Assembly: GCA_015499985.1 (NCBI GenBank)
Contig: JAAAUF010000106.1
Location: 3,371-64,695, forward strand
DNA: 61,325 nt
Direction: 5' to 3'
Source: Haplosporangium gracile
Lineage: Eukaryota; Mortierellomycota; Mortierellomycetes; Mortierellales; Mortierellaceae
Within the stretch, counting starts at the first letter, position 1. Each line of letters begins with the position of its first letter. Positions 3,501-58,500 of the stretch are shown in pieces. A program made the translations under genes and the position numbers. The notes beneath the pieces are model-generated. The model searched no databases and was not told the origin of the DNA. It worked only from the letters and a program-made list of their open reading frames with translations.

Positions 3501-5676
3501 TTCCAATGGAAGGCTGCTCTGGGTGAGACGACTGTGAGATCGCAATAATGTCCAGCAAAACTTGCGACGCAACCGAGTGAACCTGTGTATTAAATGATGA
3601 GAAGTTATCAGTACCAATTGTAGAAGTGGATAGCTGCTAACTGCGAGATGATGAAAGTGCAGTGCATAAAGAAATAATTACCTCCGCATCAAAGTTGGGG
3701 TCGAGACGGTTGACAAGCCATGGCATCAATCCTTGCTCGCTCAACCACTATTGTGGTTGACAAAAATAAATCATTGATGCGTCAGTATTGCGGTCAGACA
3801 TGACGACGGTGGCAAGAGTTTGCTCCTGATGAAAGGATGTCGCATGTACCTGAACGGTTCCTTTGCCCTCGGGTGACTCTTCCATACTAATAATCTTGAG
3901 CAAGAGATCCATGATAGACGAGGTCGACATATGAAGTAACAACTTGGGAACCACTTCAGGTCGTGATTTGATAAATTGAAGCATCTATCAGAAAGGAAAA
4001 GTAGACATAGGTGATATAAGATGCTTGTCCTCCCATTTCCACTGCCAAGGCAGGGTATGCAGGGCTCAAAGTTCACATAATCTAACTTCAGCAGAACTTA
4101 CATCTCCAGTTTTCTTCATCAAAAAAACGCCGATGACTTTGGCAAAGTAGCTGGCTTGCACGGGGTTCAGAGGAGGAGGGCGGTCAAGAAACTCCCAAAA
4201 CTTTTCGAGCATATCGATATTCGACAAGGCAGATTCAAAGATTCCCCAGACCTCGCAGGCAATGACTTCACAGGCAATAAATGGGTATCTATTGCAGAAG
4301 AAAAAAGTGAAAGAGGTCATAACAATAGGTTAGTCTCCTTCTTGGCGTGGAATATGATGCCTGCTCGCCACTCACTCATCTTTTATAAAATACTCTGCTT
4401 CTGCCTTGATCGCTCTCTTACACCTTCACCAATCTTTAAATACAGATTCCTGCTCCAGTCTTGTTCGCTCTCTCACACCCATCCCTCTGTGAAAGAAGAA
4501 TCATGCTCCAACTTTTCTGGTGTCCTGTTTATCCAAGTGTATGTGTCGTATGTGCGTCTGTTTATGTACGTCCCTTTGTGCGCACCTTGTGATTGTCGAG
4601 TAGATTGGTACGACCAAATAGAAAACAAAAACAAAAACAAAAAAAGACATGAGCCAGATTCTTGTTCAATAGGGTTGACAATGCCGAGGCCTGGTGAAGG
4701 AGTAGTAGATCTCTCCTTGTTGATATTCCAATCCTGACAAAGCCAGCCCACGTAAGCCGTTGCAGTAAAAAAACAAGCGTGCCCTTGTGTTTTTGCGTCC
4801 TGTCGTGCCATCGATCCTTTTTTTGCTCGACAGACTTACTTGAACCGTGCACGGTCTTCGAGGTCATCGCTGATGATATAACCCAGCAGCTGCCGAAGAA
4901 CATTGGGCTCGCGCAGGCTATTGACAATATAAAAGGTAGAAAAAGAGAAAAAGGCGTGTCAGGTCAGAGGCGTCTTTATTATTCTTGCTCGTGTGAGAAG
5001 GCGACAACAAGAACTCTGAAAAGAGAAGAGTATCGCTGTTAACAAGATGGCGGCGGCTTTTTTTTTTTTTTTTTTTTTGACACGGCCAACTTGTTTTTTT
5101 TTTTCTGATGAGCAGTCGAATAAGAGCAAATGTAAAAGCGATCCAGCTGCGACGACGAGTTGACCAAAAGTCGATTCTTGCCGAATGCATCCATATGAAT
5201 GTGTGTAAAGTGTGATGTTGAGTTATTGTGTCAACCACTGTCCGACGAAAACTCTTGGATATGTTGTATCTATTCATTCTCTTCTCCTTGTTCGTGAGTT
5301 GGCGGGTCGTAAGCTTTTCCTCCCAGTCTCGACTATATCCCGAGCTTCTTTTGTTTCCTCTACTGGTTTCGTTCCTGTGAGCTGAGTTGAGCCGGTAGAC
5401 GCCCAGAACAAGACAGACAAGGGCCTGGTACGAAAACATGCTTGTCGTTCCTGTCCATACGGCTTGCTCGGTTATGTGTGTGTTGAGGAGGGTGTACAAC
5501 AAGAAGAAGCAACAAAGTAAGGAAGAGGGTATTTACTATTCGATAAGCCTTGGGTTCTGTGCCTTGCATTCCTGAATGAGATCATCCTGTTCGAGGAGCT
5601 CCTCGAGCGAGACGTTTCCGGACTCGAGGAGGTGTTCGATGACGGATGTGTTTTGGTGTCCGAATCTCCAGTACAT
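502..5676 (-). CDS. SAPS-domain phosphatase-associated protein (Sit4/PP6 regulatory subunit)
   Basis: Spliced gene, read right to left. Exons: 5676-5537, 4917-4840, 4288-4102, 3984-3850, 3747-3682, 3582-3356, 3255-3120, 3024-2150, 2053-1696, 1606-1361, 1257-502 (3204 nt, 1067 aa). The N-terminus MYWRFGHQNTSVIEHLL, then LREPNVLRQLLGY and the helical repeats to about residue 700 are characteristic of SAPS proteins (yeast Sap155/185/190, S. pombe Ekc1, human PP6R1-3). These bind the Sit4/PP6 catalytic subunit and direct it to cell-cycle, TOR and stress targets. A Lys/Glu-rich low-complexity insert lies near residues 350-450, acidic Asp/Glu clusters follow, and a Pro/Thr-rich tail ends the protein, as in fungal members. 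All boundaries are GT-AG and phases agree. The first two introns are long for a fungus (619 and 551 bp) and the first holds a poly-T run. Family assignment is strong; which paralogue is not resolved. Confidence 0.9.
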
Positions 5677-6837
5677 GGCTAATGTGCGTTAGGATAGAGA
5701 TATAAAAAGAGAGTGATGTGTAATCCAGAAGAGAAGAATGTCACAGAGCAAAAGGACAAGGGAATAGTAAAGAGCAAAGAAAAAAAAAAGAATAGAAGGG
5801 GAGAGGGGGTGGATGCTGGCGAGGATGATGACAGAAGAGAAGTAGAGGAGAAGAGGAAAAGGACAAAAAAAAGGGCGGGACGTAGAAGTTGGAAGTGAAA
5901 GTGAAAGTGGGCACGAGTCACTCGTCTGTAAGAGAGATTGAAATTTGAATTTTCGACAGATGTGTCTAGTAGGGTAATAATGATACATCGTCTCTCATTG
6001 AGCATCGAATATCATCAAGCATGCTACATACATACATACATACCTGAACAAGCATTCCTCATTCATTCCCTTTTGTTCTCTCTTCCCTGACCTCTCTTTG
6101 TTCCCTTGCCTAGCTAAAAGCAAAAAAGGTATTCAGGCATGGCACTGTAAAGAGAGCGAGAAACAAAAAAAAACGTGCGACCTTGACTTTGCTACCTTTG
6201 TTGGTCGCTCCATTTTTTCGAGTGCTCACTTCGCATCTCTTGTTTTGCTCTTATTTTGTTGTTTACTCCCAGAAGTATGCTGTAATCCAACTTCTGTGTC
6301 ATTCTTCTTCTTCTATCGCGTGTGTCGTCGTGTTGTGGCTCTGTTTTTCTTGTATCTATCGCATCTGTTTGATTACTTTGGCCTCCATCTGCTTCTTTTC
6401 TTCTTTTCATATGTGATATAGACCCTTTTATCAGGGCACATTAACACCTCGCATTACACCTCACATCCACACCCATACTCATATTCACGACGCGCACTTC
6501 CAGATGTTCACACAAGAGTCTTTTCGTTTTCTTTGCCTTCCTGTTGACCCCTTCCAACTTGCCACCAACAGTGCAGGACAAGCGATCGAATGTTCTTCTC
6601 CCTCTTCTTCACCTTTCCCCAACCAACAGCGGGTGGCTTGTACCCGATTTTTCCCTTTTCAAAAATCGAATCAGTCCCAGCCAGGCACACACTGCACACA
6701 CATGTGGGTTGTATTCGAGTTAAGGCAGGGCAGAGCTGGGCGAACGTTCAGAAGGGTGCGATATAAAGCGTCGCCTCTCCCCGCATTCTCAGACTTTAAC
6801 CATCTTTCTTCTTCCCTCTTCACACTCATCTTCAACC
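5677..6837. other. Divergent intergenic region (SAPS gene / fumarase)
   Basis: Shared upstream region of two divergently transcribed genes. It is pyrimidine/purine-biased low-complexity DNA and no coding region is supported. A minus-strand acceptor-like cattag lies directly before the SAPS start codon, so a 5'-UTR intron for that gene is possible. Confidence 0.5.
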
Positions 6838-8166
6838 ATGAACATCCTGAAGTTGAACGCCACCAGGGCCACTCCCGTAGGTTTCTTCTCATTCATACTC
6901 CTTCAACTTCATTGCATTCAGGGCTGCAAGATGCACACACACAGTACCCAACAAAAATTACATTCACGTCCTTTTCAGTCTACCCGGATCGGATCAGATC
7001 TTCTTTACTCTTGCCACCACACTCGTCTTTATCACTACTCCCATAACCACCTACTCACACACTTTTTCCTGCATCTTGTTAAATGCCATATGAATAGGTC
7101 TTGCGCCAGCAGCTTCGCTCGCTCAGCTCCACTGCTGCCTGGGTAAGTCCTACGCTTTGACCGCGTCTCTCTTTTTCTTTCTATACAAAAACAAAATAAC
7201 CATGGGACAGACAGGACAGGGCGGGACAGAGCAGCCCATGTCTTATTATGTGTGACCCAATCCGGTTCTTCTCTTACTACTTACTACCTCTCTTCTCTGA
7301 AGAAAGGAGTCATCGAAACCTCTATCACTTTCACATTCTCTCACGATCACTTGGACGCACCGTCCTCTTCTTGTTTGTCGCTTTGATCGTTGCTTGCTAT
7401 AAAAACCAGTTGGCTGACAGACCCCTTTCTTTTTCAAATCACTCACCAAATATCGACACTTCCTCGTCCTCTTTTTTTTCCCCCACCATTTGACTTTTAT
7501 ATCCATCTCCTCTTTTGTGGCTCTCAATCATAACTCTACCATATACACACTAAATAACAAATGTCCTCGTCCATCTTTCCTGTCCTCGGTCCACAGGCCC
7601 AAAAGTTCCGTCAGGAGGCCGATACCTTTGGTGATCTCCAGGTCCCCGCCGACAGATACTGGGGTGCCCAGACTCAGCGGTAAGCAAACTGATTTGCTTG
7701 GTTATTATTCACTTTCTGATCAGCTGTACACTTGGTCCATGTAATCATATCAAGAAGAAGAACAAGACGAAGAAGAAAAAACGTGAAAAAAACCCTATCG
7801 AGCAATTGAAAAGTTGTAGTCATAAGAAAAGAAGAAGATAACATGAAGCTGAAGGAGGTGTAGCCATAAAAAGAAGAGTGGACAAAGAAAAGGAAAAGTA
7901 AATGAATGTTCATTCGCTCATTCTTTTTCCTTTTTGAACATTGATCATCATAGTTCGCTTCAGAACTTCGACATTGGTGGACCCACCGAGCGTATGCCCG
8001 AGCCTCTTATCAAGGCCTTTGGTGTCTTGAAGCGCGCCGCTGCTCAGGTCAACATGACCTACGGTCTCGATGGCAAGGTCGGTGATGCCATCGTCAAGGC
8101 CGCCGACGAGGTCATCGAGGGCAAGCTTCTCGACCACTTCCCCTTGGTTGTCTGGCAGACCGGTTC

Positions 8167-26716: not shown

Positions 26717-29700
26717 ATGATGGCGGACGTTCAACCTAACGATAGCGAAGCAGCACAGCACCATGATACCTTAGCAGCAACTACAACTGCCGCGACAGCA
26801 ACACCTACAGCAACAGCAATAGCACTAACAGCAACAGCAACAGCACCAACACCAACACCTACCGCTTCAACAACGATCACGGCTACGTCTGCTGTCGTAA
26901 AACGGGGCAGAGGAAGACCTAGAAAGTCAGAGGCAGGCACCGGCGCTCTCAACACTTTTTGTGCGCTGGATGAAATCACAGGTCACCCAGGCATCCTGCT
27001 AGGACGACCAGGAGCAGCTACAGGAATTTCATCAACTTCGCCTCTTTCAGGACCTAACTTGTCTCAGCAAAGACCAGTAGCACATCTGGACTCGACCAAC
27101 TCGACTAACATTCAGTGTGAGTCATGCATGACATACGGCGCCCGACTTTACAAGTTTGGCAAGCTAAGGGTCTGCAAGGAGTGTGAGGACCTGATGCGGA
27201 CCATGACGGGCAGTTCACGACGGCAAACTGTCGCCCCGCCTGCTCTTCCTCCTCCTTCGAGTTCAAGTTCTTCGGTTTCCACTGCCTCGACCAAGCAAAG
27301 ACACAACGTCTCCATTGCCCCCGTACAGAAACCTCAGGTCTTCCCCGCTGGTAATAATTACATTTCTACATGGTTGCTGAATGATTGATATGTCTGTTTT
27401 CTCATTTTTGGTATATTGCATACCAGTGGCCTAGTTGATTTACCAATTGATGTATGTTATTCAGTCTCTAGCACGACAACCAAGCATGGCCATGTGCAGT
27501 TCAGCACTATTTCTCACTTTGCCTCTGTTCCTCATTCGACTTTTAATCCTTCGATTACGACGATATCTCCATCATCACTGGTTCTGGTTCCGGTATCTAA
27601 GTCTATACCGGTCATCTTAACCAAACGCGGAGAGATTGCCAAGAAGCGGGGTCGCAAACCCAAACCAAGGGACGAGTCTGCCCATCCCGTACCTAGTGTC
27701 ACGCAAGGTACGTTGTTCAGCTTATAACGGCAATATGAACAGGCTCTCATCCTCTGCAAACCTTGAAGTCGAACCCGCATTCATTTTCATGAATATGAAT
27801 ATAGACACACAACGCCCACAACAGCTGACAACAGACCCTACGCCGGAACAAGCGGCGAGCAAGAAGCGAAGCAGGAACCCAATGGCACTCTACCCGTACA
27901 ACATTCTCCCCGTCACCGACCCTGCGTCCGTAGTCGTCTTCAAATCCAAATCTGCGACCTATGTCGAAACCTCTGTTACCGCAACCCCAACAGCCTCTTT
28001 TACCTTGCCTTCACCTACCGACCCTTCTGGTTCCTCATTCTCCCATGAGGACAGTTTCAATTTTCAGACGACGGGCGCATTTCTTACTCGTACGGCGTCC
28101 AAACTTCTCGGCGGCCAGGAAGTGATAGGGGTGGATTCAAATATCCATGGCTATGCACATGGTCGACTCGTCAAGGTCCAAAATATCGACAAGACCTGGC
28201 ATTTCGGAGCGATGGTGGGGTTGGATCGCGGGAAGATTAAGGTTCATTTTGATGGCTGGGGACCGGAGTGGGATGAGTGGATCACGTCGGATAGTAGACG
28301 GCTCAAGGTCTTGGATGCGGACGAAATTACTCTACGGAACTCTTTGCTCTTGCCACCCACACAACTCGCCTCGCAGGTCCCGACTGCCGTTGCTTCTGAG
28401 GACCTGCGTTTTCAGCAACTACCTATGGACGACAAACCGACTTTGCAATCTGCTCCTGCCTTACACAAGGTTTCCCGTCCTCCGACTGTTGCGCTGACTA
28501 TGAAGCCACCAAAGGTCCTGAAACCGATCTCTGTCAAGCGCAAGCTGGCGCCCTCAATGGACGATGTTGTCGCAGCGCTTATGGTAGTCGACCCGGACCT
28601 CCCGAGACCTTACGGCAAGATGTTCAAGAAAGCAAAGACCTCCGAGACGTTGGATCTACTCGGCGAGTCTCTACCAATGCCGATGCCACTGATTGCAGCA
28701 AGGCCAAAGAAGCCCAAGTTGGACAAGGTGACCTCGACGATAACAGTCACAACTGAGAGCAGCGCCTCTTCGACGGCGATCATCCCAATTGCGACTACAA
28801 CAACAGGAACAGCAGTAACGTCAATCAAGCCCGCCAATACCATGTTCATTGACTTGATGTCGTCTGAATCATCGACGAACTTGGCACCAAACAATCATAC
28901 CCCAGTACTTTCCTTTACAAACATGAAGACTACCAAACCCAAGGCTGCGTTGACCAAGGACGTTTCCAAGCCGCCCAAGCTGATAGCCATAGCTCCGAAA
29001 GGATCCATCACAAGAGAGCCATCATCAACAACAGCAGAGACGACAACTCCGGTTACTGATAAACCGATCAAGTTGTCACTTGCTGACGCTCGGATACTAT
29101 TGCTCGGAATCGAGGTTGGAACCAAAGTGCAAGCACAGGACAAACACGGACAATGGCGTCCATCGACCATTGTGCAAATCAAGGCTCGAAGGGTTCTTGT
29201 CAAGTACGACGAATGCCCTAGCTTGGCTAACGAGTGGTTCATTGTCAATAGCAACCGGCTCATTCTTCCTGATCGACCTCTGATGGGGCCTCTGCACGAA
29301 GATAGCCAGATCCGCGCTACTCCAAAGGCGCCCCCGACGATTGATTTGAAACGACGAGATTCCGCCTGGTCTCCGCCGATCGATGTGGAGGCTCATACCC
29401 CCAACAGCTGCCCGGCGACCACCAGCCGCTCTATGTCCTCGTCAAGCTCCTTAAGCACTGCTCAGTCGTCCTTGTTATCTTCGCCAAACACGCTCGAACT
29501 CTTTTCCACGAGCAGTGATGACTTATCGGAGCCCGGATCTGCAGTGTCATTACCTGGTGACCTTACGGATAAGGAGCCTGCCAAGGATGATGAGCCCCCA
29601 TCACCGCCAGTCCCACGGCCTCCTCACACCCTTGGAAACCCGATTCTTCTGGATCTTCCTCCGTATGAGATTGTGACATACGAGTTTGAGGATCAGGAGA

Positions 29701-32700
29701 AGGAACTTCTGAGGATCATTCATCAAGTTTTGAACACGGGTCTGATCAAAAACACTGTTGTCAAATATTCTCCAGAAGAGTACATCCCAGCTGTGCGCGT
29801 CGTCAAGAAGAAGAAGAGGGTCGTAGAGGGAGCTGGTGGCGAGGGTGCTGTTGAAGGGGAAGAAGGGGGAGACGAGGTTGACGGCGATGATGAGGTCGAG
29901 GTTGAAAAGAAGGTTTCCAAGAGAACCAACGACAAGACCAGGGAGCGATTTGAGGCGCTTATGGAGGCAAGACTGGAGAGGCGGAATCACCGTCCATCGA
30001 TATTCTCGCCAAGGAAAACGCTTAGCGTTATTAGGAAGAAGGACCCGGACGTGTTACAGAGGATTCGTAACGAGGCGACAAGAAACATGTGCAACATTCC
30101 TGTCCTGCGGTACGTTCGGCAAGTCATCTACAAGGAGTCCGATCGATTGGAGGCTTTGAACAGCAGCTTTGAGCGTCAAAAGCAAAAGTTTGCTAGGGCG
30201 ATGTCGAATCGAGCGAGTGTCAGTAATAGGATGAAAATCAAGCGGACTTCGGGGCCACTGTCGAGGAGGATTTTTGGACTGTCGAATCCGAATCTTACAG
30301 GAATTACATTCAACGAGGCCGGATACATCGAGTCGACAAACATTCCCAAACCCGTCATTGCTCCTTCGCCCGAGGCGCTCAAGAAGTTGAAGAAGATGCA
30401 GAAGAAGAGGGAGAGGCTGATGAAGAAGAAGGCGATGGAAAACCCCAACCAAGATCTGGTGCAAGACGACACAGTCGACGATACATTCCAGAACCTCCGC
30501 AGTCTGACGCGCGACAACAAGAACCGGAAACGGCCACTGAAGGAGGACCATATCACCTTCCTGAGACGGACGATGGTTGCAGGAACGCGAATCCGGTCCA
30601 GGGATCGACAGATGGAATGGCTAACGGCCGTCATTCGGGATGTGAAGAACAGCCGCGTCCTTGTCCACTATGAAGGGTTTGGAGAGTTTTTTAACGAGTG
30701 GATCGACATCAACAGTGAGCGCCTCAAGTTTGATCCGACAATGGAGCAGTACCCAGTCCCACTCGAGGGAGTACCTGCGCCAAAGGTCGACACTGCGGCT
30801 GTGGTAGCACCTAGCGCTCAAGTTGAGACATCGATCTCGGCAGTGGTCTCCGCAGTGACTAATGAAGTTGCGGCCGAGAGTGAGGTGGCTGAGTCCAACT
30901 TTGAGGCCATCTCTGATAACGTTCAGCATGAGGAAGGTGGAAAGGAGGTCCACTGCGTCCAATGTCAAGTCAAAATCAGTCAGTTCCGGTACGTTGGGTC
31001 AATGTTTAGCTGTTCCTTGCTTTGTTGTATGTAGTGTCTACGACTGAGCTCTGACTAAGTTGATTTATCTGCACTTTTAGCATCTACTGTATGTACTGTG
31101 AGGTCGAGTCCAAAGTGGAAGGGTCTGAAGGGAAACCGTTCAACATCTGCCTTTGGTGTTTCTCAAACGCCTACCCAGAGCACCACGACCACCCGCGCTC
31201 CTCGTTCGCAACCAAAGTTATCGTTGGACCTCGTGGCGTGCGCCCCGTCAAGGGCGGCATCATCACGCGTTTCGAGAAAGACCTTATGGATATGGAGTAC
31301 AAAGAAACCGAGCGTCCCGAGAACGCTCTCGTGCCCGACCTACACTTCCAAGCAATGATGGGACTCGAAAGCGATCAAGGGTTCTTGTACTTGGACCAGT
31401 GGAAAGACAGGAAGATCTGCGCGTTCTGTAATGACGATGGGACCACCAAGGACTATTTTATCGGACCGCATCCGTTCTTATTGGCGTCGACGAATCGGTA
31501 CGGCGATACCAAGAAGCGGAATTTTTGGGCGCATGATGCCTGTGCACGGCATTCTCCAGAGGTTATTCAGGCCAAAGATGGGAGCTGGTATAACGTTTCT
31601 ATGGCCATGCGGCGTGGTCGTACTGTGGTATGTCCCTGAAAATGATCTTTTTTTTTTTGCTGGCCAGATTAATTTACTCGCTGGTCATTAACTCACGCAT
31701 TTATCACTATTCATTCAAATTCTTCGTGATAACTTAGAAATGCACTGGATGCAGAGAGAAGGGAGCGACGATCGGGTGTTTCGACCCAAAGTGTGGGCGC
31801 AGTTTCCACGTGCCTTGCACCGGCAAGCCCATGTCACACTTTGAGGATGGTGTTATCTTTTGGTGTCCACAACACGAGCGCGCTCTCATGCAAAGAGGTA
31901 CAATTATTTGAGTGTTCTGTTTCCCTTGATGTACTGGACACCTTTGCTTGTTACGTGTGCTAACATGACAATTGTTGAATTCAACGAAGATGCCTATGAC
32001 GATACTTTCAGCTGCGACCGTTGCTCCAAGGTTCTGGGAGTTAACCCTTGGCACACTTGCAGCAAGTGCAGTGAAGACTACTTCCACACCTTCGATCTTT
32101 GTCGCGAGGTAAGAACTCTTCACCACAGCATACATGTCTAGTGCTTTGAGGATGTGGTACTCCTGAGCAATATTTTAATTGTTTTTTCTTCTCTGCTTGT
32201 TTGTAATTAGTGCTTCTCGAAGGACGACATCAATCATGAGCACGAAAAGGACGAATTCAGTGTGACTTGTGAGTACAACGCCTGAGCCCTTTACATGTTG
32301 CTACTTATTTCTACTGGAATTATGGTGCACCTTACTAATATTACATGTGTTTCACCTTTAATAGCGTTGGAACTCATGTACAAGGAGCAATTGGAAAAGG
32401 AGGCTGCGGCTGCACAGGCGATCGAGGCGGAGGAGTATGCGCCAGTGAAGAAAAAAGCGCCCACCTACAAGGCCAAGATGCGAGGCCTGTCGCGGCTTGT
32501 TTGTTCATACTGCTGGTCTGGGACATCCGCCAAATGGCGTAAAGGTAACCACTGCAAAGAGAATAGCCGCGTTTATTTTCGGGGAAGTTGGCATTGTAGG
32601 TTGAGCCTAACGCCTGATTATTACCTTGGTTCACGTGGAATAGGATACAACGGTGTACTCATGTGCGAGGATTGCTTCCTGGCAGGACCAGTCAACGATA

Positions 32701-35575
32701 TCCCAATGCAACCACCCATGGACATGGAAACCTTCTCTGATGGTGTTGGATCCGTTCCACTTTCGTCAGTTTCCTTGTTGGCGGCTCAGGAAGAGTACAG
32801 TCGGGGTGTGGGGACATACGCGACCTCGGCTGAGGATTATTCTCATAGTCCTTATTTGACGCGTACCGCGGTCTCTGCTGTTCGGTTTGATCATTCGTCA
32901 TCCCAAGCGGTGTATCTGGACTCTTATGGCCCTGCTGAGAACCAACTGTTTTCGCTGCCGATTGATACAACTTATTATGATATTCCTGGACGCGCACCAA
33001 GGTGTAAGTTACGATTGGAGCGTGGTTACAGTTTTCTATGCGCTTTAATCTGTTGCTGATGTGTTAACGCCGAGATTTTTTTGTTTTTTAAATTAGGGGC
33101 CACGCATTCCGGAACAGATTATCACGGTACTTGGCTCCCACAGACCGTGCGAAGGTAAACCTTATCTCTGCTTCGTTGTTTTGTTCTAGTTTATGTTTTT
33201 TCATGTGAATTTAGCGACAACATACTCATGAATTGCACCTTTCACAATCCTAGAGCTGTGACCAAGTTCACGAACCCGAACGACAAGATCCTCTCCAACT
33301 TTCTGGGTCGTGGCACCGATGCCATCGAGTGCTTCCTTCTTGGTCGATGGTAAGAGCAGTCGCTATTTTTTTAATTTCTTTAACCAACTCAGCCGTGACT
33401 TTTGCGAGCGGTAATACTTACAACGTATCTCGTTGTTTTCTGGTCATTTTAGCTGCACTGCTGTAGATATCAATCCTGTAAGTTACCCCAAGCCTTTCTG
33501 ATCCTTCAAGTTGACGACTACTTTCTCCCTTCCTTTCATTTTAAAGCTAACCATTACTACACACAATTATTGTACTAGGCGGCAGTAACACTCTCGATCA
33601 GGAACTGCTCGTTCGCCATCCCTCAGGACGGATCCATCAAAGCAGAACATCGCCCAACAATCCTCCAGGGTGACTCTCGAAGGCTCACAGGACCCCTCTT
33701 CGAAAACGAGAGTTTTGATCACGTTCTCTCTCACCCACCCTACAAGGACTGCGTCGCCTACTCGACCCACATCGACGGCGACCTCTCGCGGTTCGGAAAC
33801 GCGCTCGAGTTCCAACGAGAGATGCGGTCCGTCGTTCGGGAGTCGTATCGGCTCCTCAAGATGGGTCGTAGATGTACGCTGGGAATCGGCGATAACCGTG
33901 AACATTGCTTTTATATACCGGTGTCTTTCCAGTTGATCCGACAGTATATTAATGAAGGGTTCGAGTTGGAGGAGTTGATTGTGAAGCGGCAACGGTATTG
34001 TGCGATGTTTGGCTTGGGGACTTATTTATGTGTGCAGTTTGACTTCTTGTGTTTTACACATGAGTTTATTGCGACATTGCGGAAGGTCCCCAAGGAGGAG
34101 ATTGATACCATGATCCTCGAACCAGGTACGTTTTTTTTGGCATGCTGACGAAAGTTTTATTGTGCGAGATTATGTCCCATTTGCAAGTTCCATACATCGC
34201 GCTGGCAGTTTTTTGACACGTGTGTCATTGTTTGCGGGATATAGACTACGCGGTGCTGGATGATGTTGGGATCACGAGTACAGTGAGGGCAATCCCGAGC
34301 TGCCCTGTCGAGCGCAAAAGCGTGGTCATGGGGTCTGTGTGGACGTTCAAGCCTACCGAGGAGTACGACTTTCCTACGCTCTGTGTCTCCCGCATGGTAA
34401 GGACCTACAGTTCAAATGTTGATTACTTGAAAAATGATGTTGTTTATATATTGAGGAAACAATGCTAAGCTCGTTATTTTCTTTGGTGCTCGCATAGGTG
34501 GAGAGGTTCGGCAGAAACGACGCCAACTGGGAAGAATACAAGCTAAGCTTCAAGATAGACAATCCGGATGAGCCAGCATCTGAGAAGTGGGCTGAACATG
34601 CGGTGGAGATCTTGCCGCCCGAGGAAGACGATCTTGTGTCATATGAGCGTGATCGCCTTCAGCAGATCCAGGAAAACAACCGCATGCTTCTTGCCCTCGT
34701 AAGTGTCTAACATGTGTATCATTGACAAGGACTGGATTGCATTGTTTGTTTTCTCTGATGCTCACAATTATTCTCTTTATGAACTGTAGGGTCTGATCAC
34801 GGATCTGAGTGAAACGTCCGACGACTTGGGCCACCAGACCAAAATCTCAAAAGATGCACCCTGCTACCCACCCCCCGCACAAACAACTCTCCGTCTTGTC
34901 GCCCATATTCCATGCACCGTTCTCAAACCCCACCAGATCACTGCGTACCGAACGACGATTATGCATTTGGCTAAGGAGGCCCTTAACCGGCTCCCCGTCA
35001 GTGGAATCTTTATTGTGGGCGCGCAGGATATTCGAACGGAGAGTGGGAAATTGATACCGTTGGGGATGTTGGTCATGGAGGATGTCATCCGGGCTGTTGG
35101 GGAGGATTGTCTCAAGTTAAAGGAGTTGAGTAAGTTTCTTGTTGCTCTTGATAAATGTTCGTGTTGACTTTGTCAGAATTGATATAATTAGGAAAAGGCG
35201 TCCGAGGCTGATCTAACCAATTTTTTCACTTCGACAACAATAGTTGAGGCAGTGCCAGATGGCTACCAGAAGGACAGGCGCAAGATCACGAACTGGGGCG
35301 AGTTTAAAGAAGAACCCCGGTCACCTGGCGATGGAATCCCGACTCACCATCTTCCTATCGTCCACGTAAGGCGCAACGTCACTTTTTGTACTTATATGAG
35401 CATCACTCTATCGTCCAAATTACAAACATGGGCAGCTGTAACTGATAGCTCCATTTTCTTTCTGCTGAAATGATGTTAGGCATGCTATTTGGTGTTCACC
35501 AAGGTCAAGGAAAGAGTTGTGCCCGTCCAGGAAACATCTATTGATGAAGACATTGAGGCAGTACCAGCAAACTAA
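26717..35575 (+). CDS. Multidomain chromatin-reader / N6_N4-type DNA methyltransferase fusion
   Basis: 18 exons: 26717-27350, 27465-27707, 27805-30988, 31081-31627, 31738-31897, 31990-32108, 32211-32268, 32365-32544, 32644-33003, 33097-33154, 33254-33349, 33453-33477, 33579-34125, 34245-34396, 34498-34698, 34790-35129, 35244-35365, 35480-35575; 7122 nt, 2373 aa. Domains in order: AT-hook (KRGRGRPRK, about 61); CX2CX15CX2C finger (about 133-155); second AT-hook-like KKRGRKPKPR (about 271); Tudor-knot-like modules at about 405-465, 724-782 and 1215-1271, each ending EW followed by I or F and an S-R-L; ZZ-like finger (about 1339-1390); extended PHD (about 1463-1585); second ZZ finger (about 1592-1645); GATA finger CX2CX17CX2C with TSAKWRKG (about 1694-1720). 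A methyltransferase domain fills about 1830-2373: SAM motif I NFLGRGTD, acidic VDINP, catalytic-loop SHPPY (about 1939-1943), then GDLSRF, LGIGDNREH and HEFIATLRK. Order and wording resemble prokaryotic and phage DNA methylases. DNA methylation guided by chromatin is inferred; base specificity is unknown. Confidence 0.88.
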
Positions 35576-36051
35576 TGGGCGACCCCATGTCTTGGCTGCG
35601 TTTTCTTTTTTCGGGTGACACTGTTCTGTATTTGTCTTTCAGTTCTAGACCATTATGTAAATGTCAAAATAAAATTTAGAAGTGGATACATTATCGCTGT
35701 GCTGACATGGGTTAGAAGTATCAGTGACAGTGTGCTAGCCTGACTCTTTTTTCGCTCTGTTGTGTGGTCCAATGTATTGAAATCCAGTTGATCGCATTAC
35801 TCGCTCTTTTGTGCCACCAAAATTGAATCGTCTGAGAGCAGTCTTCTCACTTTTTGTTGTTGCCTGGCCTTTGCCTTTCGCTCAGCACCGTCATCATCCC
35901 TTACACATTTACTTCTTGTGCTTTATACCCGTACTGATATGTTTGATCCTACTTTGTTAGTTTCTCTTTTTTGTTTATTCATCACCACACATCCTCATCC
36001 GGTTACTTGGCCAGATCCATGTCACACTCGCATGAAAAAAGGAGTTGCACC
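35576..36051. other. Intergenic region before the assembly gap
   Basis: Downstream of the methyltransferase gene. It holds a candidate poly(A) signal (aataaa, about 35670) and then low-complexity pyrimidine-rich sequence. No gene is seen. Confidence 0.35.
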
Positions 36052-36263
36052 TTTGAGGAATCTTTCTATATCTCTTCTCATCTCCCTCATCTATCCGCTT
36101 CCCCCCACNNNNNNNNNNNNNNNNNNNNNNNNNNNNNNNNNNNNNNNNNNNNNNNNNNNNNNNNNNNNNNNNNNNNNNNNNNNNNNNNNNNNNNNNNNNN
36201 NNNNNNTTTGAGGAATCTTTCTATATCTCTTCTCATCTCCCTCATCTATCCGCTTCCCCCCAC
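36052..36263. repeat. 98-N assembly gap flanked by identical 57-bp direct repeats
   Basis: Ns fill 36109-36206. The 57 bp left of the gap (36052-36108) are repeated exactly on the right (36207-36263). This is typical of a scaffolding join in which the two contig ends overlap, so the true gap may be zero or negative. A real tandem repeat cannot be excluded. Confidence 0.95.
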
Positions 36264-49569: not shown

Positions 49570-52500
49570 CTACGATAAGGCCAATAACTCAGCCAGATTC
49601 TCCTCCAGCAAACGAAGTTCTTCCTCCAAAGATGCACGCGCCGGACTGATCGCGTTCAAGTACACGATAGCATCCACCTCCTTACCGTCATCATCTCCAC
49701 TGTCGTCGCTTCCTGAATAGTCGGCTTCCTCCGATGTAAACTCTATGCTGGCTTCCTCCCAATCCTCTTCAGCCTCCGCCCATTCCTCCTCTCCGTCCTC
49801 GCCGTCTTCCTGAGACTCTTCGTCATCCTTGTCGTCAGATTCTGATCCATGCTCTGGGACCTCCTCCTCTTCAGAGCCATCGCTTCCAACATCTTCTTCC
49901 TCCTTCTCCTCAACTACCTCATCTTGTTCATTCTCGTCATCACTCCTCGATGGAACATAATCCTCATCATCCTCATCATCTTCCTGCGCCTCTCTTTGCC
50001 CCAACATCTCCAACGCCTCTCTCGCAGCCAAAATTTCGCCCTCGACATACTTGACAACACTTGACTTGTTCTTTGCAATAAATTTATCGCAATATTCCCG
50101 CACATTCTCCGCCTGGCTATGCTCCGCATGACTCCGAATGTTGAAAACATTGCTGTGGATGATTTTCTGGCCCATGACAAGTTCCTGTGCAATCAAGTCC
50201 TTAAGTCGGGCCGCCTCGAACCGGTTGGCAACCTCTTGGAGCTCCATCAGGTACTGTACCCGTTCTGAAAGCTTGTCCTCGGGCTTCTGGACCTCTGCAT
50301 CATCAGCGTATTCCTTCCAGCTGTCGTTCTCGCCATTGCTGGATGTGTCGTCGCCATTTTCTCCCTCGCTCGCCGACCCTTCATCAACCTCGTCGTCAAA
50401 AAGAGGTGGCCCATTTGACTGGATCAACTTGTCGGAATAAAAGTAGTACAACAAGCCCCAAAAGCCAGTCTTGATATTGCCATAGCTCGACAAATCGATC
50501 ACCTGCACACCCGGTTCATGAGGATCCCTCGTCGAGTTTGAAGCCCAGACGCCCGTAAACCGCCGGAAAAAATAATCGCTCGCCCTCGCCAATACGACCT
50601 TGTGGGCCAAGATATCCGACCCCTTCTGGAATTTGAATCGAACATCCATAAAGCCTGTATCCTGATCCTGTGTCTCAAAGCAGTTCATGATCTGAATCTC
50701 CATATCGCCCAACTTGCGCCCGTCCGCCACATCAATAGAGCCCTCGACATGCTGCATCTGCTCCGCTCCCATGGCAACCAAAAAGTTCCGATACTGGTGC
50801 AAGATCGGGTCGACAATGTCATGGGACGAAATGTTTTGGTCGATATCAAACATGAGTCGCGCCGGCCAGACCCACGAAATCGTTTTGCTGGGATCCTTGT
50901 TGCCATTCAAGATGTAGGGCGCCTTCATATACTTGGACATCAGCGTTGTCAACTCCCGGTACTCGTCGTTCATCGAGACATAGCTCTCGCACTTTTGATA
51001 GATCCGGAATAGATGGAGCTTAAGGAGATGTTGCTGCTCCATCGTCTTCCACTTTGGAGCGATGCACTTGACGAGGGTGTTCAGATGCTGGTAGATTTCG
51101 CACAGATAGTAGATGTACACCTTGGGAAACTTGGTCTTGAAGGCAGGCGAAGGTACCAGGTCAGTAGGAAAGAATCCTCGTTGCGTCCATAACAGGTCTC
51201 GGTATTGAAAATGAGCGAGCTGAGAGAAGGCCATGTAGACTGGCAGATTGGGCGCCAGCATGTCATACGGCGACTCGAGGTTGGCCTCACGTGGCACGAA
51301 CTTCCACTTGGCGTCCATCCAGTCGACTCCGCCGTTTTCAGGGTTCTCGTAGATATACTTCACAAGCTGAATAGCCCGTGCCCGTGTTGTTGCCGGATCA
51401 GCTGTTCCATCCACCGTTTCCGCCAGGACTTTCTCCGCACACTCCACAATCAAAGCGGGATGGCTGCTCAAGGTACGGATACTTGATTTCATGGAATAAC
51501 GCAACATGATATCCGTCATCTCCTGTTCGGCGAAGAATCCCGGCCGATCTGCAAATATCGACTCTGTCAGTGCCTCGCCTGGCTGAGCCAGTTCTCCTTG
51601 CGCATGGAATGACCCATCCCGAGCTATGAAGCACCGTGCAGTCCTCAGGACTTCCTGTGGGGCTACCGCGACATATCCTCGAAGTGCGCTGACGTAAAAC
51701 AAGTTCAACAGCAGGCCAAGGTAGGCGGTTCGGTTGTCACCTTCACACTTGAGCTCTCCACTGTGGAACTTGGGGAGGACGAAGTCCATCATGGCAACGG
51801 CAATCCTAAGCGGTGTGGCTCCTATCAGCTTGAAGATTCGAATGTCGTCTGACCAAAGGACGTTCGGGAATGCTCCAAATCTGTGCAAACCAAAGTGACC
51901 CTCCAGGTAGTAGGCTCCTCTGGCAGCGATTAATGGAGAGACATCTGTCGATCCTTGTGTCGTCCAGATCGGGAGGTCTCCAATAGTGGAGATCAAGCTC
52001 TGCTTAATAGTGCCCTTGCAGGCCAATACGAGTTCTCGCATCCCCTTGGCCTCCATCCTGCTGAACGCTCGATGTGTTGGTAGCGCCTCCCAATGAGTGA
52101 CGATGGCCTCAAGAAGTCGGAGATCGGTGTACTCTGGACATTCGTTCTTGAAATACTCGTGGTCCCGGTGCGCTGCTGACTCGTAGACCACAACGTCGAG
52201 ATCTCGAAGAAGATCCATGAACAAAATAAACTTCTGCCCCGTCTCATATTGGAGTCCTGATATCTGAAAACCTGTTTTCACCTTGCCGAGTGTGGTCATG
52301 GTACCGTAGGAGGTTTTAAGGATCGGAAAGTCGGAGAACGTATCAAGGCCCTCGTACTCCTCGTCAATGTAGTCCCAGAGCTGCTTTAACTGCTTGTCCG
52401 TCACTCCATCAGGGTTCTCCTCAAGGAATCTTGATGCGAAGACTTCCTCCGGGAGCATTCTAATATTGTATTTGTCGTCCTCGATCAACTTGGTCAAAAC

Positions 52501-55500
52501 AATTCCGAGTTCCTTGGTGCTGAAGACGATTTCGTCGACCAGGATGTCCTTTGCACTGAGAAGACCAAGCTCGTGCTCCGTTGCCACATAATACGTGCTC
52601 TCGAATCTCCCGAGGCGCTTCCATTCTCTATTGAGCAACGGAACGACTTGAAGGCCGCAGGACGGTACAGACACTTGCACTTTCGGGTTCAACACTGGCT
52701 GGAACGCCCATCCCAAGATCCAATCTCTGTCCTCGCTGGTCGTCATGTCATCCTTGAGGAACTCCGGGGTATGGAAAAGGCGGTTTCGAACAAAATCTCC
52801 ATCGACCTGCGCGTACGACAACTTGGGCTCCTTGCTCCATTCAGCCTTGATGGCCGACATGACTGGATCTGGGACAATACTGATGGCTTGTGCTCCTTGG
52901 CGTAGCCACGGAAGGACATTTGACTCTAGCTCAGGAGGGATAGTAACTGGCCCAGGCAGGATGGCGTCGCGTCCTGTTTTCAACTGCATAGGGAACTCCA
53001 TGAGCGGACCAGGGCAAGGAAACAATGGAGAGTTGTGGGCATGGCGCAAAAACGCCCTGAGGAATGGTTGGAATTGCTCCGAAGCTCTGAGGGGCCATTG
53101 ATCAAAATAAGCCTTGTTAGCCGATTTGAAGCCTTGGCGACTGCGACCTGGGCTTGTCGGATGGGCAAAGTTCATTGCAAAAAGATGCTCCATCGCGCGG
53201 ATCGCGGTCTCTGGTAAACATGATTCGATAAGGAATGAGTTCCAGATACGCTTCTCATTCTCCTCCTCACTGCCTCCAGCCAGGTTCTTGCGATTCGATG
53301 TCAGAGCAAAGTCGCCGTGGATGTGGAATGGTAGCTTGGTCAGAATGGGAGTCGGGAGATGGACAAAGAGCTTGCTCTGAAAACCCGATCGGTCAGTCTC
53401 CTGGATCTGGATTGCAACCCCGCGGTGTGGGCTCCAGTATCTCATGGCTGCAAGTCGTCGGACCGACGGAGTCGTATTGGAGGGAAAGGCGTCATCGCAG
53501 CAGACTAGCCACAACGAGCTCGCTGCACTTTTAGACGCTGGGGCAGCGGGTGACACCTCGATCATGACAATGGAATCAAGGGAATCGGGTGCACAGCTAG
53601 AAGGCTTGAGGAGGTTACTCTTAACCGATGCCGACTTTGTCACCGTCACCTGAGGCTTGAAGCCATCCGAGATCAGAATAGTCTTGACGTTCTTCAGGAA
53701 CAACAGCCCGACCTTGGCATCTTCAACCCACTCATCCATCATCCTGCGAATCTGCGGCACCGTCCAACCAGCCCTTCCAAAGCCAGAACCAGAACCAGTA
53801 GCTGCGGTCGACTCCACAGTCACTCCCGGCGCAGGCGCAGGCGCGGAAACCTCAGCTGGCACGATCCTCAAAGGTATCCTGAAGAGCGTGCCCTTGAAAT
53901 GCGACCTCATTTCGCAGCCGAGAATACCCTTGTATGGCTCAAGCTGGTCGGCTAGCGTCTCCATGCTCAGCTTCCTGAAATCGCATCGATGACCGCCCTT
54001 GGCGATAGGGGCTCCGTTGCGGTCACGACTCATAGGGAGGTTGGTCATGTGCGGGTCGAAGAAGCCGATGTAAGGTCCGCTGACAATGCTCGGTACGTCG
54101 GTGAAATGGTAGACGGAGTTGAAGCCCAATCCGTGGCGCCCAATCTTCGAAGTGTCCTCCTCTATTACATAGGGAGTGCGGAGTAATTTTTTTTTAATAT
54201 GTCGTTCTCCAAATGAACAGTTGTGGTAACACTTTGCATACAATCTTAAAAAAGTTGATACCAACTTACTCTTGTTTCCGACTCCAAGTCTACAAAGGGC
54301 GTCAAAATCCTTATCCGAAAACTCGGCATCGTTGTAGATCATCAACGCGGGTCCTTGCCATGTAGCCATCTGCTTGCTGAGTATCTTGTCCGTGCCAAAT
54401 GAACGCGAGTCCAACCAGAACCGGCATTCTGTCGCCCCGGCATCGGACGCGTTTTGCAAAAACTCGTTAAAGATGCTTGAGGGATCATAATCGTTCAAGA
54501 TCCCCTTGATGCGATCTACAATTTTCTCCTGCTGGAAGAAAGGATCGAACGAGTTGTCCTTAGCATCCTCCCAACAGCGCGCCGAGAACATGGTAATCTT
54601 GAGACGCTCCGCCATCTCATGCGAGATCCTGCGATGCACAAACGTGTAAGGCAATTCTCCAGCTCCGAGATCGCTCTTTCGAACGTTCACATCATCATAG
54701 ACTACATCCGCAGCTCGCTTAAGGGTGCCATCCTCGGTGAGCATGAGTAGATCCGCTGACCAAGTCGGGTTATGGCCATCTGCGATTCCAGCTAGGAGAC
54801 GATAGACGAGATCCGCGTCCGTGGCCGAGATAGATTCGTCAGCTCCGTACTTGGATCCAACGGAGGCGAGAATGTCCTCCATGTCCACCTGCTGGATATG
54901 TTCTCGCACGCCGAGCGCCAGATAGAGATCGTCCAGATCCGCGGCGGGAACCTGTACAAAGTGCGGTTGCAGGTCGCAATGCATCTTGAGAGCGACTCGA
55001 TCGACCATGTAGAACGCTCCAGAGACCAGCACCCAGGCCTGGTTTCGCAATGTCGACTTAATGAACTTGAGCGACTCGGGTTTCTTCACCTTCTCTGCCA
55101 GGTACTCGTAAATAGGCATAATGTCCAGGTTGTTGAGGGCCTTCCGCCGCCGCGTATCTGCAACATCCGAGGTGGCAGCTGTACTCTCGTCGGGACCCTG
55201 GGGTTCGTACTTCCTGGCAATCGAGCACAGATTTTGAAGCACAGTCTCCAATGGTGGCGGCGACTTCCACCCAACACAGTCAAGCAACACCTCGTTTGTA
55301 AAGGTAAACTCTGCAAGCGGCATTCTGTTTCCAACCAGCGCCCGATCACGCTGTGGTCGACAGACCGCCGGTGTTTGCCATCCGTCATCTAGTCCAGTGA
55401 ACACCCACGGCACGGTCTTCAAGATCTTGCGAAGATCTGGCGAGAGAAACGCCTCCGAGCAATCACTGTTCAGTCGACCATACAGCGCCTCCACAATTTT

Positions 55501-58500
55501 GCGATGTTCCTCCATCCTCAAATCCCCAGAGCCAAACAACGTTTTAATACGTTCTTGGACGAACGCCGCATCAAACGTAGAGTACATCCCCAGCTCCGAC
55601 AATATCCCAAACAAAGGCGCCTCTCCATAAACTCCTACCGGGAAAACAGCGTCCGTATCCTGAAAGAAAGCGGCGAGGCTCGGATGAACCACAGACTCCG
55701 GACTCAGAGAACGTGGTGGTAAAGGTTTGGCGTTCTCTTGCTGTGGTGCTGACGCCGGTTTTGTTGACATAAAAGGAAAGCTGCGAATGAGCGAGCGCAG
55801 GCCAGTGCCTTTGTCGGTAGATTTCGGTGCTGTGGTTGTCGAGACGAAGGGTACGCTGCGGAGGGCTGAAGCTAAGTCAAAGACCTTGCTGTGAACATGG
55901 TATGAAGGCGCAAGTTTGGTCATGATCGCATCCCACTCGCTCTCGTCCTGCCTTGTCATGTTGGAAACGAGTAGGTACCAATACTCGGACACGGACAGCA
56001 CGGGGACCCCCAGCATGATGTTAAGATGCTCCCTTAAAGGCTGATCGTCCGCTAGAAGGTCGATCGATGGTGGCAGCCAAGGATGTTCCAGGTTGCCGTA
56101 TCCTTGGGCAAGTCGCCACTGTTTGGCGGTCATTGTTGAGGATGACGACGGTGAGGCGCTTGATGTGTCCAAGGGCTCCAACTTACCGCTGCTGTACATC
56201 TTATAAACTGGGAGGCGTCTCAGAACGCGCTGCTGGTTATCTGTGAGCTTGGCCGTCGTCTGTAAGACTGCTGCCAAATAACTCGCCAGTTGCGCACGAT
56301 CCTTCTGCGATACTCCAACGAGCATGTCGGCTTTGGTCTCGTGTAGTAGGCCTAGAATCCCAGGAGCGTCAGAAATTTCGACAACAAACCGTTGAAGGGA
56401 TGCGGGTGGTCGAAACCATGATCTCAGAACATTGCAGCCGAGATGCTGTTCCAGTATCGAGCACGCCTTCTGCATGACACCGACATTTCCCAACGTCATC
56501 CTGTTGAGATGAATGGTGCGCTGCTCAGTCGATAATGGCGCCAGTTGACCTCGGCCCACCGGAAGCAAGTGGATCCCGGCTAGTCCTGAGAGTAACCCCT
56601 TACAATCATCGAGCTCGTGGGCCATATCCCAAAAGTCCATAATCCATTCGTCCGTCGGGAATCGTTCCGGTAATTGAGAGATACATCCACCTGGAGATGA
56701 GCTATCTCGATAACAAGCCTGCTGGAAAGCCCAACGGACCCGCATCGCGATAGAAAAGGGTGATATTGGGACCCAGAAAGTGGTGTCTTTAGAGAAGGCA
56801 TTGATCTGGTCAAAAGGATAACCCTCGATGTTCAAATCCACCAGTCCCGCGTTTGCCTGTGAGAGCGTCTCAAATACGAGGCGAGGCACAAAGAACCTGT
56901 CAACATAACGTTAAAATTAAATTTAGTGCCTTGGTCGTATCCACAAACAATGAGGCAGCAAGAATAAATCGATACTTGCTTACCGCTCTTGCGCCTTGCC
57001 TTGTTCAAAGTCGACCCAAGTGTCTCCATCAAGTGGGAGAAGAGGTAGGCCTTCTAGACCGGCAATGTCGCTGTCGAAAAGGCAGTACTGTACCATCTCA
57101 ATGCGTGTTGCCGAATCAGCCGTTGAAGACCACTGCTCTCTGTTGTCAAAGAGAATCTCCCTCACATGAGCAGGTGTGAGGATAACTTGGTCGATTCCAA
57201 GTGTTGGAATGAGAGCGGCGATCTCCCTGAGGATGACATTAGGAATACCCTCCGCCAGGTTGACCATCGCATGCAGCGATTCCTTGAGAAGTGGGTATTG
57301 ATCAACATCGCGTCCTGCGATGTAAAGTGTCGAGTACTGGCGGATATAGCAATTGTCCTTGGTCTTGGAACCACATACAAAGATCTTGCGGTCCTGAGCG
57401 ACAGCCGCCTTGAGAACGTCTTTAAGCAAGTTCTTCCAGATCGCATCCAATCCGATGCTTTCGCCGCAAGAGGTGGGCCAAAGGTCGTAGTTGGTACCAT
57501 GGTCCAGGCCTACATCCTCCAAGAACATGGCGTAGACCTCCGGGACCTGCTTTTCGAATAGGTGGATGTTCCAGAGCGACTTGATGTTGGCTGAGGCCTG
57601 GCTCGAAAAGTCGTTATCCTGGTTAGTCCAGATCTCACGTCGGCTCTGCTTGACCGCAAAATGTCCATTGATGTGAACCGGAAACGGCAGTTGAATACCG
57701 ATGGGTAAGAAGCAAAAAAGCCGAGAAGCGTCAATCTTTACTTCCGGGTCCGTTGGTGCCGCGATGCCGACCCATGGGATCAACCTGTGGTTGCTGATGT
57801 TTCCATCAGTTCGTGCCACCATGTACTCTTTCGATTTGAGTACATTACCAACCAATGTGCTGATGTGCCACGTCTCCTCGATGGTTGATCCGTCCTCCTG
57901 GGTGATCCTGTAAATCGGCCTCACGGAGTAGTTGAGAATATCTTCCTGACTTGCTGATTGTGTAGGGTTAATGTGAGCCTTGAGGCTACCGAGGAGCTTG
58001 AGTCGTTCTCTCCTGACATTCTCTGCGTTCACGATCTCGATCTGAAATAGTTTCGTCGGTTTTTCCTGGTTCTTCTTCCGCTCGTAGATGACGATCTTTT
58101 CCACATGCCTCAGAAACAACAGAGCCTTCAGCGCCTCCTCCTTCAACTTGACCAACATTTCAAGAACCTATCGCGTCAACGTTAAAATTGAAATTTAAAT
58201 AAATGCTCCATTTTGTTATACACCGGAGCCATGGTGAGAAGTAACCATAGCAGCTTGTTGTCACCTTATCAGCGGTGTATGCATATTTAGAGATGTCCGA
58301 GGTCTTTGCCTGCTCCTTTGTCCTGAGTGGAAACCGAAAGACAGTTCCAGGGTAGGGTTTCGAAAAGTCAATATCCTCCAAAACCGAGAACGTCCTGAGT
58401 TGATCTGGAAATTCGTTGATTCCTTGATTGCCTTCAGCAAAGTTGCCTCGCACTGCTCCCTCCTTAAACTTGGAATTGATGCCATTGAAGATGCGCTCGT

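Follow-up and report, generated by a model that had tools for sequence, protein, structure and literature searches.

The gene analyzed here lies in a 61,325-nucleotide stretch of Haplosporangium gracile DNA (hereafter the window; contig JAAAUF010000106.1, positions 3,371 to 64,695 of the forward strand) and joins an array of chromatin-reader modules to a DNA methyltransferase in one gene model of 18 exons. The comparisons described below indicate that its product is probably a nuclear, chromatin-targeted DNA amino-methyltransferase, the enzyme part of which was transferred as a two-module enzyme from a bacterium or a phage. By sequence, the enzyme family is that of the bacterial HPPY methyltransferases of about 250 amino acids (aa) found in DpnII operons. 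An earlier sequence-only reading of the same DNA is thereby partly supported: the fusion and the kind of enzyme were right, whereas the type of the readers and the family have been refined. New here are the enzyme family, its bacterial gene context and the probable two-module ancestry.

Catalytic module

The spliced protein matched Pfam N6_N4_Mtase (PF01555) with 44.2 bits (cut-off 26.7), while the best PADLOC match of the fungal domain was the Type II methyltransferase PDLC03376 (1.5e-37, profile positions 20-248 of 249) and its best PHROG was 498, a DNA methyltransferase (1.7e-13). The prokaryote- or phage-type N6_N4 methyltransferase postulated in the sequence-only reading is thus borne out, and its motifs NFLGRGT, VDINP, SHPPY, GDLS, IGDNR and HE.....RK were all found where it had placed them. 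Assignment by profile to an RNA or small-molecule methyltransferase family, named there as a refuting outcome, did not occur, the profiles being those of DNA methyltransferases, although the likeness in fold to Trm11 discussed below counts in the opposite direction. PF01555 includes adenine as well as cytosine enzymes. Among the Pfam matches at E ≤ 1, for which the 2373-aa protein was scanned in three pieces, neither MT-A70 (PF05063) nor MetB/N6_Mtase (PF02384) appeared, and the C-terminal 583 aa gave no match to Chromo at E ≤ 1; one bacterial relative matched PF02384 at 0.0016, below the cut-off.

Motif I is defined as D-x-F-x-G-x-G-T and motif IV as [DNS]PP[YFW]. In the fungal module motif I reads S-N-F-L-G-R-G-T (aa 1860-1870) and precedes motif IV, HPPY (aa 1940-1943), i.e., the motif order is non-permuted. 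Since HPPY is present in 116 of 117 bacterial and viral relatives, the histidine of motif IV characterizes the family rather than pointing to fungal decay. Moreover, of 61 columns conserved to 95% or more across 30 bacterial and viral ingroup relatives, 42 are identical in the fungal sequence, the retained near-invariant residues including HPPY, the G-x-G-T of motif I, the D and N of VDIN, the GD and R of IGDNR, K-x-Q and HE. The nearest relatives found are L095, encoded on a phage contig, and L120, a bacterial protein of 473 aa, both 38.6-38.7% identical to the fungal module; with L095 the identity was 39% over 241 aa.

Gene structure

The reading frame of the 18-exon model is open from the ATG at 26717 to the TAA ending at 35576, and its 17 introns (91-119 bp, all GT...AG) rule out bacterial contamination. 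Among the enumerated plausible donor and acceptor sites, six splice combinations remain open from this ATG to a stop. Acceptor 33214 was rejected, as it adds 13 aa at a point where L095 has none; acceptor 33253 was chosen because the alignment with L095 has no such insert, which results in 2373 aa. Acceptors 34497 and 34503 differ by 2 aa and both keep the frame open. Homology of the methyltransferase to L095 begins at TTYYDIPGR (aa 1817) within exon 9. That exon also encodes the C-terminal half of the GATA-like finger, and the tryptophan codon of WATH is divided into T and GG over the exon 9/10 junction. Dividing the gene at a point between 31 and 33 kb would disrupt the GATA-like finger, the start of the methyltransferase or the WATH codon. 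With the open frame and the bridging exon 9, the claim of a single 18-exon gene holds at the level of the gene model. The guanine-plus-cytosine (GC) content is 0.525 in the reader part and in the enzyme part alike, compared to 0.476 in the whole window.

Bacterial and phage relatives

The first close relative was a Fusobacterium protein of 244 aa, 33% identical over 229 aa, whose gene adjoins genes for a D12/Dam methyltransferase, a DpnII endonuclease and an Mrr-type nuclease. In Fusobacterium vincentii (L010, 3273-6639, in a 2.1-Mb record filed as a plasmid) the row reads D12 methyltransferase, DpnII, Mrr-type nuclease and HPPY methyltransferase. Scanning species genomes of bacteria and archaea yielded at least 491 confirmed stretches, of which 80 loci were kept, ranked by likeness to the DpnII-operon protein, so that the association with DpnII is inflated in this set. 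In an earlier count of 89 enzyme loci, tblastn with the Fusobacterium proteins detected DpnII at 66, D12 at 78 and the Mrr-type nuclease at 4; with more divergent DpnII queries, DpnII endonuclease was found at 83 and D12/Dam methyltransferase at 94 of 109 fetched ingroup loci, and neither at ten. These ten include L095 and L120, which have no DpnII or D12 neighbour in the stretches examined, and some of the others are short-flanked. Pfam confirmed DpnII beside three deeper members of the family. In the fungus, the nine other open reading frames (ORFs) scanned in the window gave no Pfam match to DpnII or D12; no dedicated search for them was made in its genome.

The DpnII-operon N6_N4 methyltransferases (PDLC03376) share motifs and motif order with the fungal module, to which they are 33-39% identical; by contrast, they are mostly of 244-250 aa, consist of a single module and stand in an operon with the endonuclease. 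Judged by the motif order of DpnA, we take the HPPY enzyme not to be DpnA. Strains of Streptococcus pneumoniae with DpnII have two methylases, DpnM and DpnA, one of which acts on single strands, according to the part of the report available (PMC3573125).

Searched with the fungal sequence at a threshold of 1e-8, one phylum gave matches in 42 of 398 genomes (centre genome included), of which 25 reached 1.2e-30 or better; in a second phylum only the centre genome itself matched (1 of 398). The L095 query at 1e-12 matched 6 of 185 and 8 of 392 genomes, centre genomes included. Viral sequences queried with just the fungal protein gave no match; the first alignment-based viral scan returned seven loci, comprising five full-length relatives on phage contigs and two weak partial ones. 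Among the deeper members, L105 (1513-2577, minus strand), L106 (1207-2193) and L107 (1183-2190) show by eye an N-terminal C2H2-type zinc-finger-like stretch ahead of the methyltransferase. Fragments of the catalytic enzyme in two genomes of the phylum of L120 (L124, 61% over about 95 aa, and L125, 69% over about 49 aa) suggest broken copies.

Second module

A 60-kb viral contig of IMG/VR is the source of the L095 stretch, whose enzyme ORF (5920-6768) overlaps a 179-aa ORF (6713-7252). The latter is similar to the enzyme's C-terminal half and is without motif I. The surrounding region (2741-8129) holds, besides this overlapping degenerate ORF, a cluster of three different DNA methyltransferase genes. 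In L120, from genome G810 of the phylum searched with the L095 query, both modules form one 473-aa protein, the frame being open at the start of the contig; its contig neighbours include 4Fe-4S and DUF4351 proteins. The second modules of L095 and L120 are 55% identical, and residues 364-471 of L120 echo, in its AlphaFold model and with moderate confidence, the main strand-helix order of residues 151-272 of the first module (E-H-E-E-E-H-E...E). L095 and L120 both combine a catalytic module with a degenerate second half, as the fungal protein probably does, and differ from it in having no chromatin domains and in their small size (282 + 179 and 473 aa).

A profile hidden Markov model (HMM) of the second module, built from the second ORF of L095 and the C-terminus of L120, scored 12.9 bits on fungal aa 2091-2373, a value matched by none of 3000 shuffles in either of two runs (1741 and 1757 of the 3000 gave a reportable score) and by none of 724 comparison ORFs, which were of at least 200 aa and did not match the family profile, other methyltransferases still being among them. 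A profile of the ordinary C-terminal half reached 5.3 bits, a score equalled or exceeded by 4 of 3000 shuffles and 21 of 724 ORFs; for the combined profile the score was 13.9 bits and the counts were 0 of 3000 and 5 of 724. The matched order agrees by eye past the scored stretch, with SVW..., QDIR and VH...LVF. It is therefore likely, though not proven, that the C-terminal 270 aa or so of the fungal protein are homologous to the second module of L095 and L120.

L095 and L120 are the only two-module relatives found. Four further viral scans retrieved nothing beyond the L095 contig and hence no additional two-module case; the second module of L095 and L120 retrieved from plasmids only the catalytic Fusobacterium protein and from phages nothing, and tblastn of the fungal C-terminus against plasmids gave no match at E ≤ 1. 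With the whole of L120 as query, 52 of 299 genomes matched in each of two draws, none past residue 299 of 473; these draws largely overlap each other and the 398-genome draw used with the fungal query.

Phylogeny and origin

For the tree, hits with a profile coverage below 70% and, by hand, 13 duplicate loci were excluded; 119 ORFs were left (117 distinct ones and the fungus), reduced to 39 sequences by clustering at 80%, with chosen sequences always kept, and aligned over 242 columns. The fungus grouped with L095 and L120 with a support of 97.1 in the SH-like approximate likelihood-ratio test (SH-aLRT) and 86 in the ultrafast bootstrap (UFBoot), i.e., with the two-module relatives. This placement and the homology of the second module may be regarded as partly shown, and it was probably the two-module enzyme that was acquired. 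The identity of 38.6-38.7%, the introns inside the enzyme and the host-like GC content argue for an old transfer, and the many bacterial members for a direction from bacterium or phage to fungus. The origin would thus lie in a long-ago horizontal transfer of a two-module orphan relative of the DpnII-operon methyltransferase. The family is present in one Mycoplasmopsis genome (L072), and Mortierellaceae harbour Mollicutes-related endobacteria (PMC10507103). A Mollicutes endosymbiont as donor is not claimed, as the tree separates the fungus from L072. What was available on the DpnII-Dam system of Metamycoplasma hominis (PMC10305163) has no bearing on the HPPY methyltransferase family.

Chromatin-reader modules

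Pfam MBT passed its threshold on the spliced protein with 36.2 bits (cut-off 22) and three stretches, of which the match table located only the best, in module 3. In the comparison with Protein Data Bank (PDB) sequences, which took in modules 1 and 3, module 1 matched L3MBTL3 (2.8e-10) and PHF20L1 (1e-5) and module 3 matched L3MBTL (3.8e-10), PHF20/PHF20L1 chains also being matched. Tudor-knot reached 17.3 bits and stayed under its cut-off of 20.8; consequently, of the three Tudor-knot-like modules described in the sequence-only reading the number stands, whereas their type is MBT by profile. The extended PHD of that reading was recovered by Pfam zf-HC5HC2H above its cut-off (40.3 bits against 29.1), and the zinc-finger block matched an H3K4/KMT2D methyltransferase chain (4.1e-9) and PHF6 (2.5e-5) in PDB. 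The AT-hooks are present as sequence patterns, with no HMM basis, and an additional C-x2-C/C-x2-C finger was noticed that had been missed before. Overall, the reader modules resemble, as judged from their sequences, those of chromatin proteins.

Proposed function and alternative explanations

We propose that the readers, from the AT-hooks and the three MBT/Tudor-type modules to the extended PHD and the ZZ- and GATA-like fingers, would anchor the protein where chromatin bears certain methyl-lysine or DNA features, and that the catalytic module would move a methyl group from S-adenosylmethionine (AdoMet) to an exocyclic nitrogen of a base in nearby DNA. The target is more likely to be adenine N6, perhaps in GATC, than cytosine N4; adenine in GATC is a first guess because most of the fetched relatives sit with GATC enzymes. 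The degenerate C-terminal module could act as a non-catalytic partner that stabilizes the enzyme or positions the DNA, comparable to the inactive partners of heterodimeric methyltransferases. Activity, base, target sequence, reader ligands, nuclear role and the direction and age of the transfer are what we infer here. In its fullest form, a single-chain read-and-write enzyme of two-module origin that places N6-methyladenine (6mA) or N4-methylcytosine (4mC), possibly in GATC, directed by methyl-lysine marks on histones or other proteins and independent of MT-A70 and MetB, the proposal is put forward tentatively.

Several observations weigh against the proposal of an active, chromatin-targeted two-module enzyme. 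No DNA-recognition domain was identified in the protein, the association with DpnII is inflated in the ranked genome loci, and the ZZ and GATA fingers of the sequence-only reading, although present by their Cys/His spacing, did not reach the Pfam cut-offs (ZZ_ADA2 18.6 bits against 27.5, GATA 14.0 against 26.8). In motif I the D is replaced by S, a conserved T nearby is changed to D, the family's QHNCKATGYW block is mostly altered, and the fungal branch is long (1.86 substitutions per site); together with the degenerate methyltransferase-like module that was probably already adjacent, these changes would fit a catalytically dead remnant, the fold of which would now serve to bind DNA or AdoMet or to dimerize within a chromatin scaffold. 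That is unlikely in view of the 42 near-invariant columns retained, HPPY and G-x-G-T included, and of a frame open across 18 exons. Somewhat doubtful, but to be taken seriously, is the possibility that the C-terminal 270 aa or so are an unrelated fungal extension and the ancestor was an ordinary single-module DpnII-operon enzyme, the enzyme being otherwise as proposed. In its favour, phmmer with fungal aa 2061-2373 against 6908 ORFs of the loci gave nothing at E ≤ 1, exon 16 alone yielded a mediocre structure model whose structural search contained no methyltransferase, and the approximately unbiased (AU) test did not reject a placement of the fungus with the DpnII clade (0.068). Against the main proposal as a whole, the second-module profile run on the full fungal protein gave a weak best domain of 7.7 bits, and the AU test also left unrejected the placements outside the ingroup (0.167) and with the outgroup (0.166). 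The score of the second-module profile on the C-terminus, unmatched by shuffles or comparison ORFs and set against the 5.3 bits of the ordinary half, the agreement in order beyond the scored stretch and the tree joining the fungus to L095 and L120 speak for the two-module ancestor.

The nearest solved fold to L120 is the archaeal tRNA methyltransferase Trm11 (6.7e-13), and an archaeal Trm11 likewise heads the PDB sequence matches obtained with the fungal domain (0.0013), as would suit an RNA methyltransferase, e.g., of a Trm11-like tRNA guanine-N2 type, in place of a DNA enzyme. This is quite improbable: neither a THUMP domain nor TIGR01177, which we take to be the Trm11-type model, was among the fungal matches at E ≤ 1, the four NCBIfam matches at that level all being sub-threshold (0.055 to 0.14) and including two adenine DNA methyltransferases and one HemK2-type protein methyltransferase. 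Furthermore, the Fusobacterium relative scored 44.3 bits on TIGR01177 against a cut-off of 316.55, most of the fetched bacterial relatives lie beside DpnII and D12 genes, the best PADLOC match is a Type II DNA methyltransferase and the reader modules are chromatin-like. It is about as improbable that the model merges two adjacent genes, a chromatin reader and a separate methyltransferase. Although six of the enumerated splice combinations stay open, exon 9 unites the GATA-like half-finger with the start of the methyltransferase homology, the WATH codon straddles the next junction, and intron size and type are uniform along the whole gene.

Features and genomic setting

Features of the fusion gene (positions in the window; residues in the 2373-aa protein)
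Feature	Position	Strand	Residues	Basis or remark
Whole gene	26717-35576	+	2373 aa	18 exons; splice-site enumeration and translation
Exons 1-6	26717-27350, 27465-27707, 27805-30988, 31081-31627, 31738-31897, 31990-32108	+		
Exons 7-12	32211-32268, 32365-32544, 32644-33003, 33097-33154, 33254-33349, 33453-33477	+		
Exons 13-18	33579-34125, 34245-34396, 34498-34698, 34790-35129, 35244-35365, 35480-35576	+		
AT-hook 1	26897..26932	+	61-72	VKRGRGRPRKSE; sequence pattern only
Additional C-x2-C/C-x2-C finger	27116..27184	+	134-156	Sequence pattern
AT-hook 2	27638..27676	+	270-282	AKKRGRKPKPRDE; sequence pattern only
MBT/Tudor-type module 1	28125..28316	+	400-463	Pfam MBT stretch, PDB matches
MBT/Tudor-type module 2	29106..29273	+	727-782	Tudor-knot 17.3 bits at 728-759 (below cut-off); presumably an MBT stretch
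MBT/Tudor-type module 3	30576..30737	+	1217-1270	Best Pfam MBT stretch, 1232-1266
ZZ-like finger 1	30948..31195	+	1341-1392	Interrupted by intron 3; ZZ_ADA2 18.6 bits, Cys/His spacing
Extended PHD	31412..31878	+	1465-1583	Pfam zf-HC5HC2H 40.3 bits
ZZ-like finger 2	32007..32258	+	1596-1645	Cys/His spacing; two ZZ_ADA2 stretches, below cut-off, in the scanned piece that holds it
GATA-like finger	32496..32678	+	1693-1720	Exons 8/9; Pfam GATA 14.0 bits, CxxC...WRxG...CxxC spacing
Catalytic DNA amino-methyltransferase module (predicted)	32967..34085	+	1817-2057	Pfam, PADLOC, homology to L095
WATH...YHGTW	33003-33134	+		
Motif I	33288-33320	+		
VDINP	33460-33477	+		
GDSRRL	33663-33686	+		
HPPY	33729-33746	+		
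IGDNR	33882-33899	+		
Second, degenerate methyltransferase-like module (probable)	34331..35503	+	2100-2350	No motif I or PPY
Core homology of second module	34922-35245	+	2233-2302	HMM of L095 ORF2 and L120 C-terminus

The window is part of contig 61 of a 37.5-Mb genome assembly of 1157 contigs. Pfam matches were obtained for five of the nine other ORFs scanned in it (SAPS, lyase, PAP1/bZIP, nickel transporter and sacsin/BTB), all ordinary cellular families; the last of these, on the minus strand at 49570-56910, is one open frame of 2446 codons with sacsin (SACS) and BTB domains. Just downstream of the fusion gene, a run of 98 N (36109-36206) is flanked on either side by a near-identical sequence of about 57 bp (TTGAGGAATC...CCCCCCAC), which looks like an assembly-gap duplication.

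The fungus's own genome was searched exon by exon, so that an absence is weak evidence. Matches to the enzyme part comprised eight stretches, all inside the fusion gene, and no second copy was found; MT-A70 matched on three contigs and C5-methyltransferase on one, and PF02384 (MetB) gave no match in this exon-by-exon search.

Comparison with known systems

Bacterial-type DNA methyltransferases in eukaryotes have precedents in N4CMT and MetB. The bdelloid rotifer enzyme N4CMT combines a bacterial N6_N4 methyltransferase with a chromodomain, was shown to write 4mC and has, according to its authors, no eukaryotic homologues (PMC8885841). It is like the fungal protein in that a eukaryote acquired an N6_N4 methyltransferase of bacterial type and joined it to a reader of methyl-lysine; however, as described there, N4CMT has a permuted (beta) motif order and one C-terminal chromodomain, whereas the fungal protein has motif I before HPPY, HPPY as motif IV, an N-terminal reader array and a probable second, degenerate module. 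MetB, from Mucor and other early-diverging fungi, is likewise a restriction-type bacterial methyltransferase in fungi, which writes asymmetric 6mA and for which horizontal transfer is proposed (PMC11258239); it differs from the fusion enzyme in belonging to another Pfam family, PF02384, and in having a target recognition domain, and the terms 'PHD' and 'PF01555' occur 0 times in the text of that paper.

In the excerpts consulted, the MT-A70 6mA writers of early-diverging fungi and other eukaryotes act as MTA1/AMT1 with the inactive MTA9 (PMC12695648, PMC13297926). They resemble the present case in methylating adenine in DNA, as the fungal protein would, in organisms of a like kind and in the logic of a catalytic and an inactive partner, and differ in family (PF05063) and in being separate chains. 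A 2026 review of fungal DNA methylation gives MT-A70 and MetB as the enzymes that write 6mA in early-diverging fungi; its main text contains '4mC' 0 times, and PF01555 is absent from the passages available (PMC13297926). A 2025 survey in Nature Genetics covers MT-A70, with 'N6_N4' occurring 0 times in the text available (PMC12695648). The Marchantia 4mC writers MpDN4MT1 are comparable as eukaryotic N4-cytosine methyltransferases, the likeness being drawn from the description of them available (PMC8566409), while a review of eukaryotic DNA marks, as far as it was available, has no bearing on the HPPY methyltransferase family (PMC11065753).

That no protein with this layout has been described, as the sequence-only reading had it, agrees with the entries listed from the open-access literature, as judged by titles and abstract openings, subscription papers and protein databases being outside the scope; among the same entries, no eukaryotic report of the HPPY/DpnII-operon family was found. 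Iyer, Abhiman and Aravind are said to have described, in 2011, bacterial-type methyltransferases fused to chromatin domains in eukaryotes, which could reduce the novelty. The present analysis also reveals a two-module form, catalytic plus inactive, of the DpnII-operon methyltransferase in a phage and a bacterium. If active, the fungal protein would be another bacterial-type DNA methyltransferase recruited to eukaryotic chromatin, with a reader array far richer than that of N4CMT, and a candidate for a single-chain link between histone state and DNA base methylation in the early-diverging fungi, in which 6mA is abundant. If this is true, the cell could mark its DNA according to the way in which that DNA is packaged.

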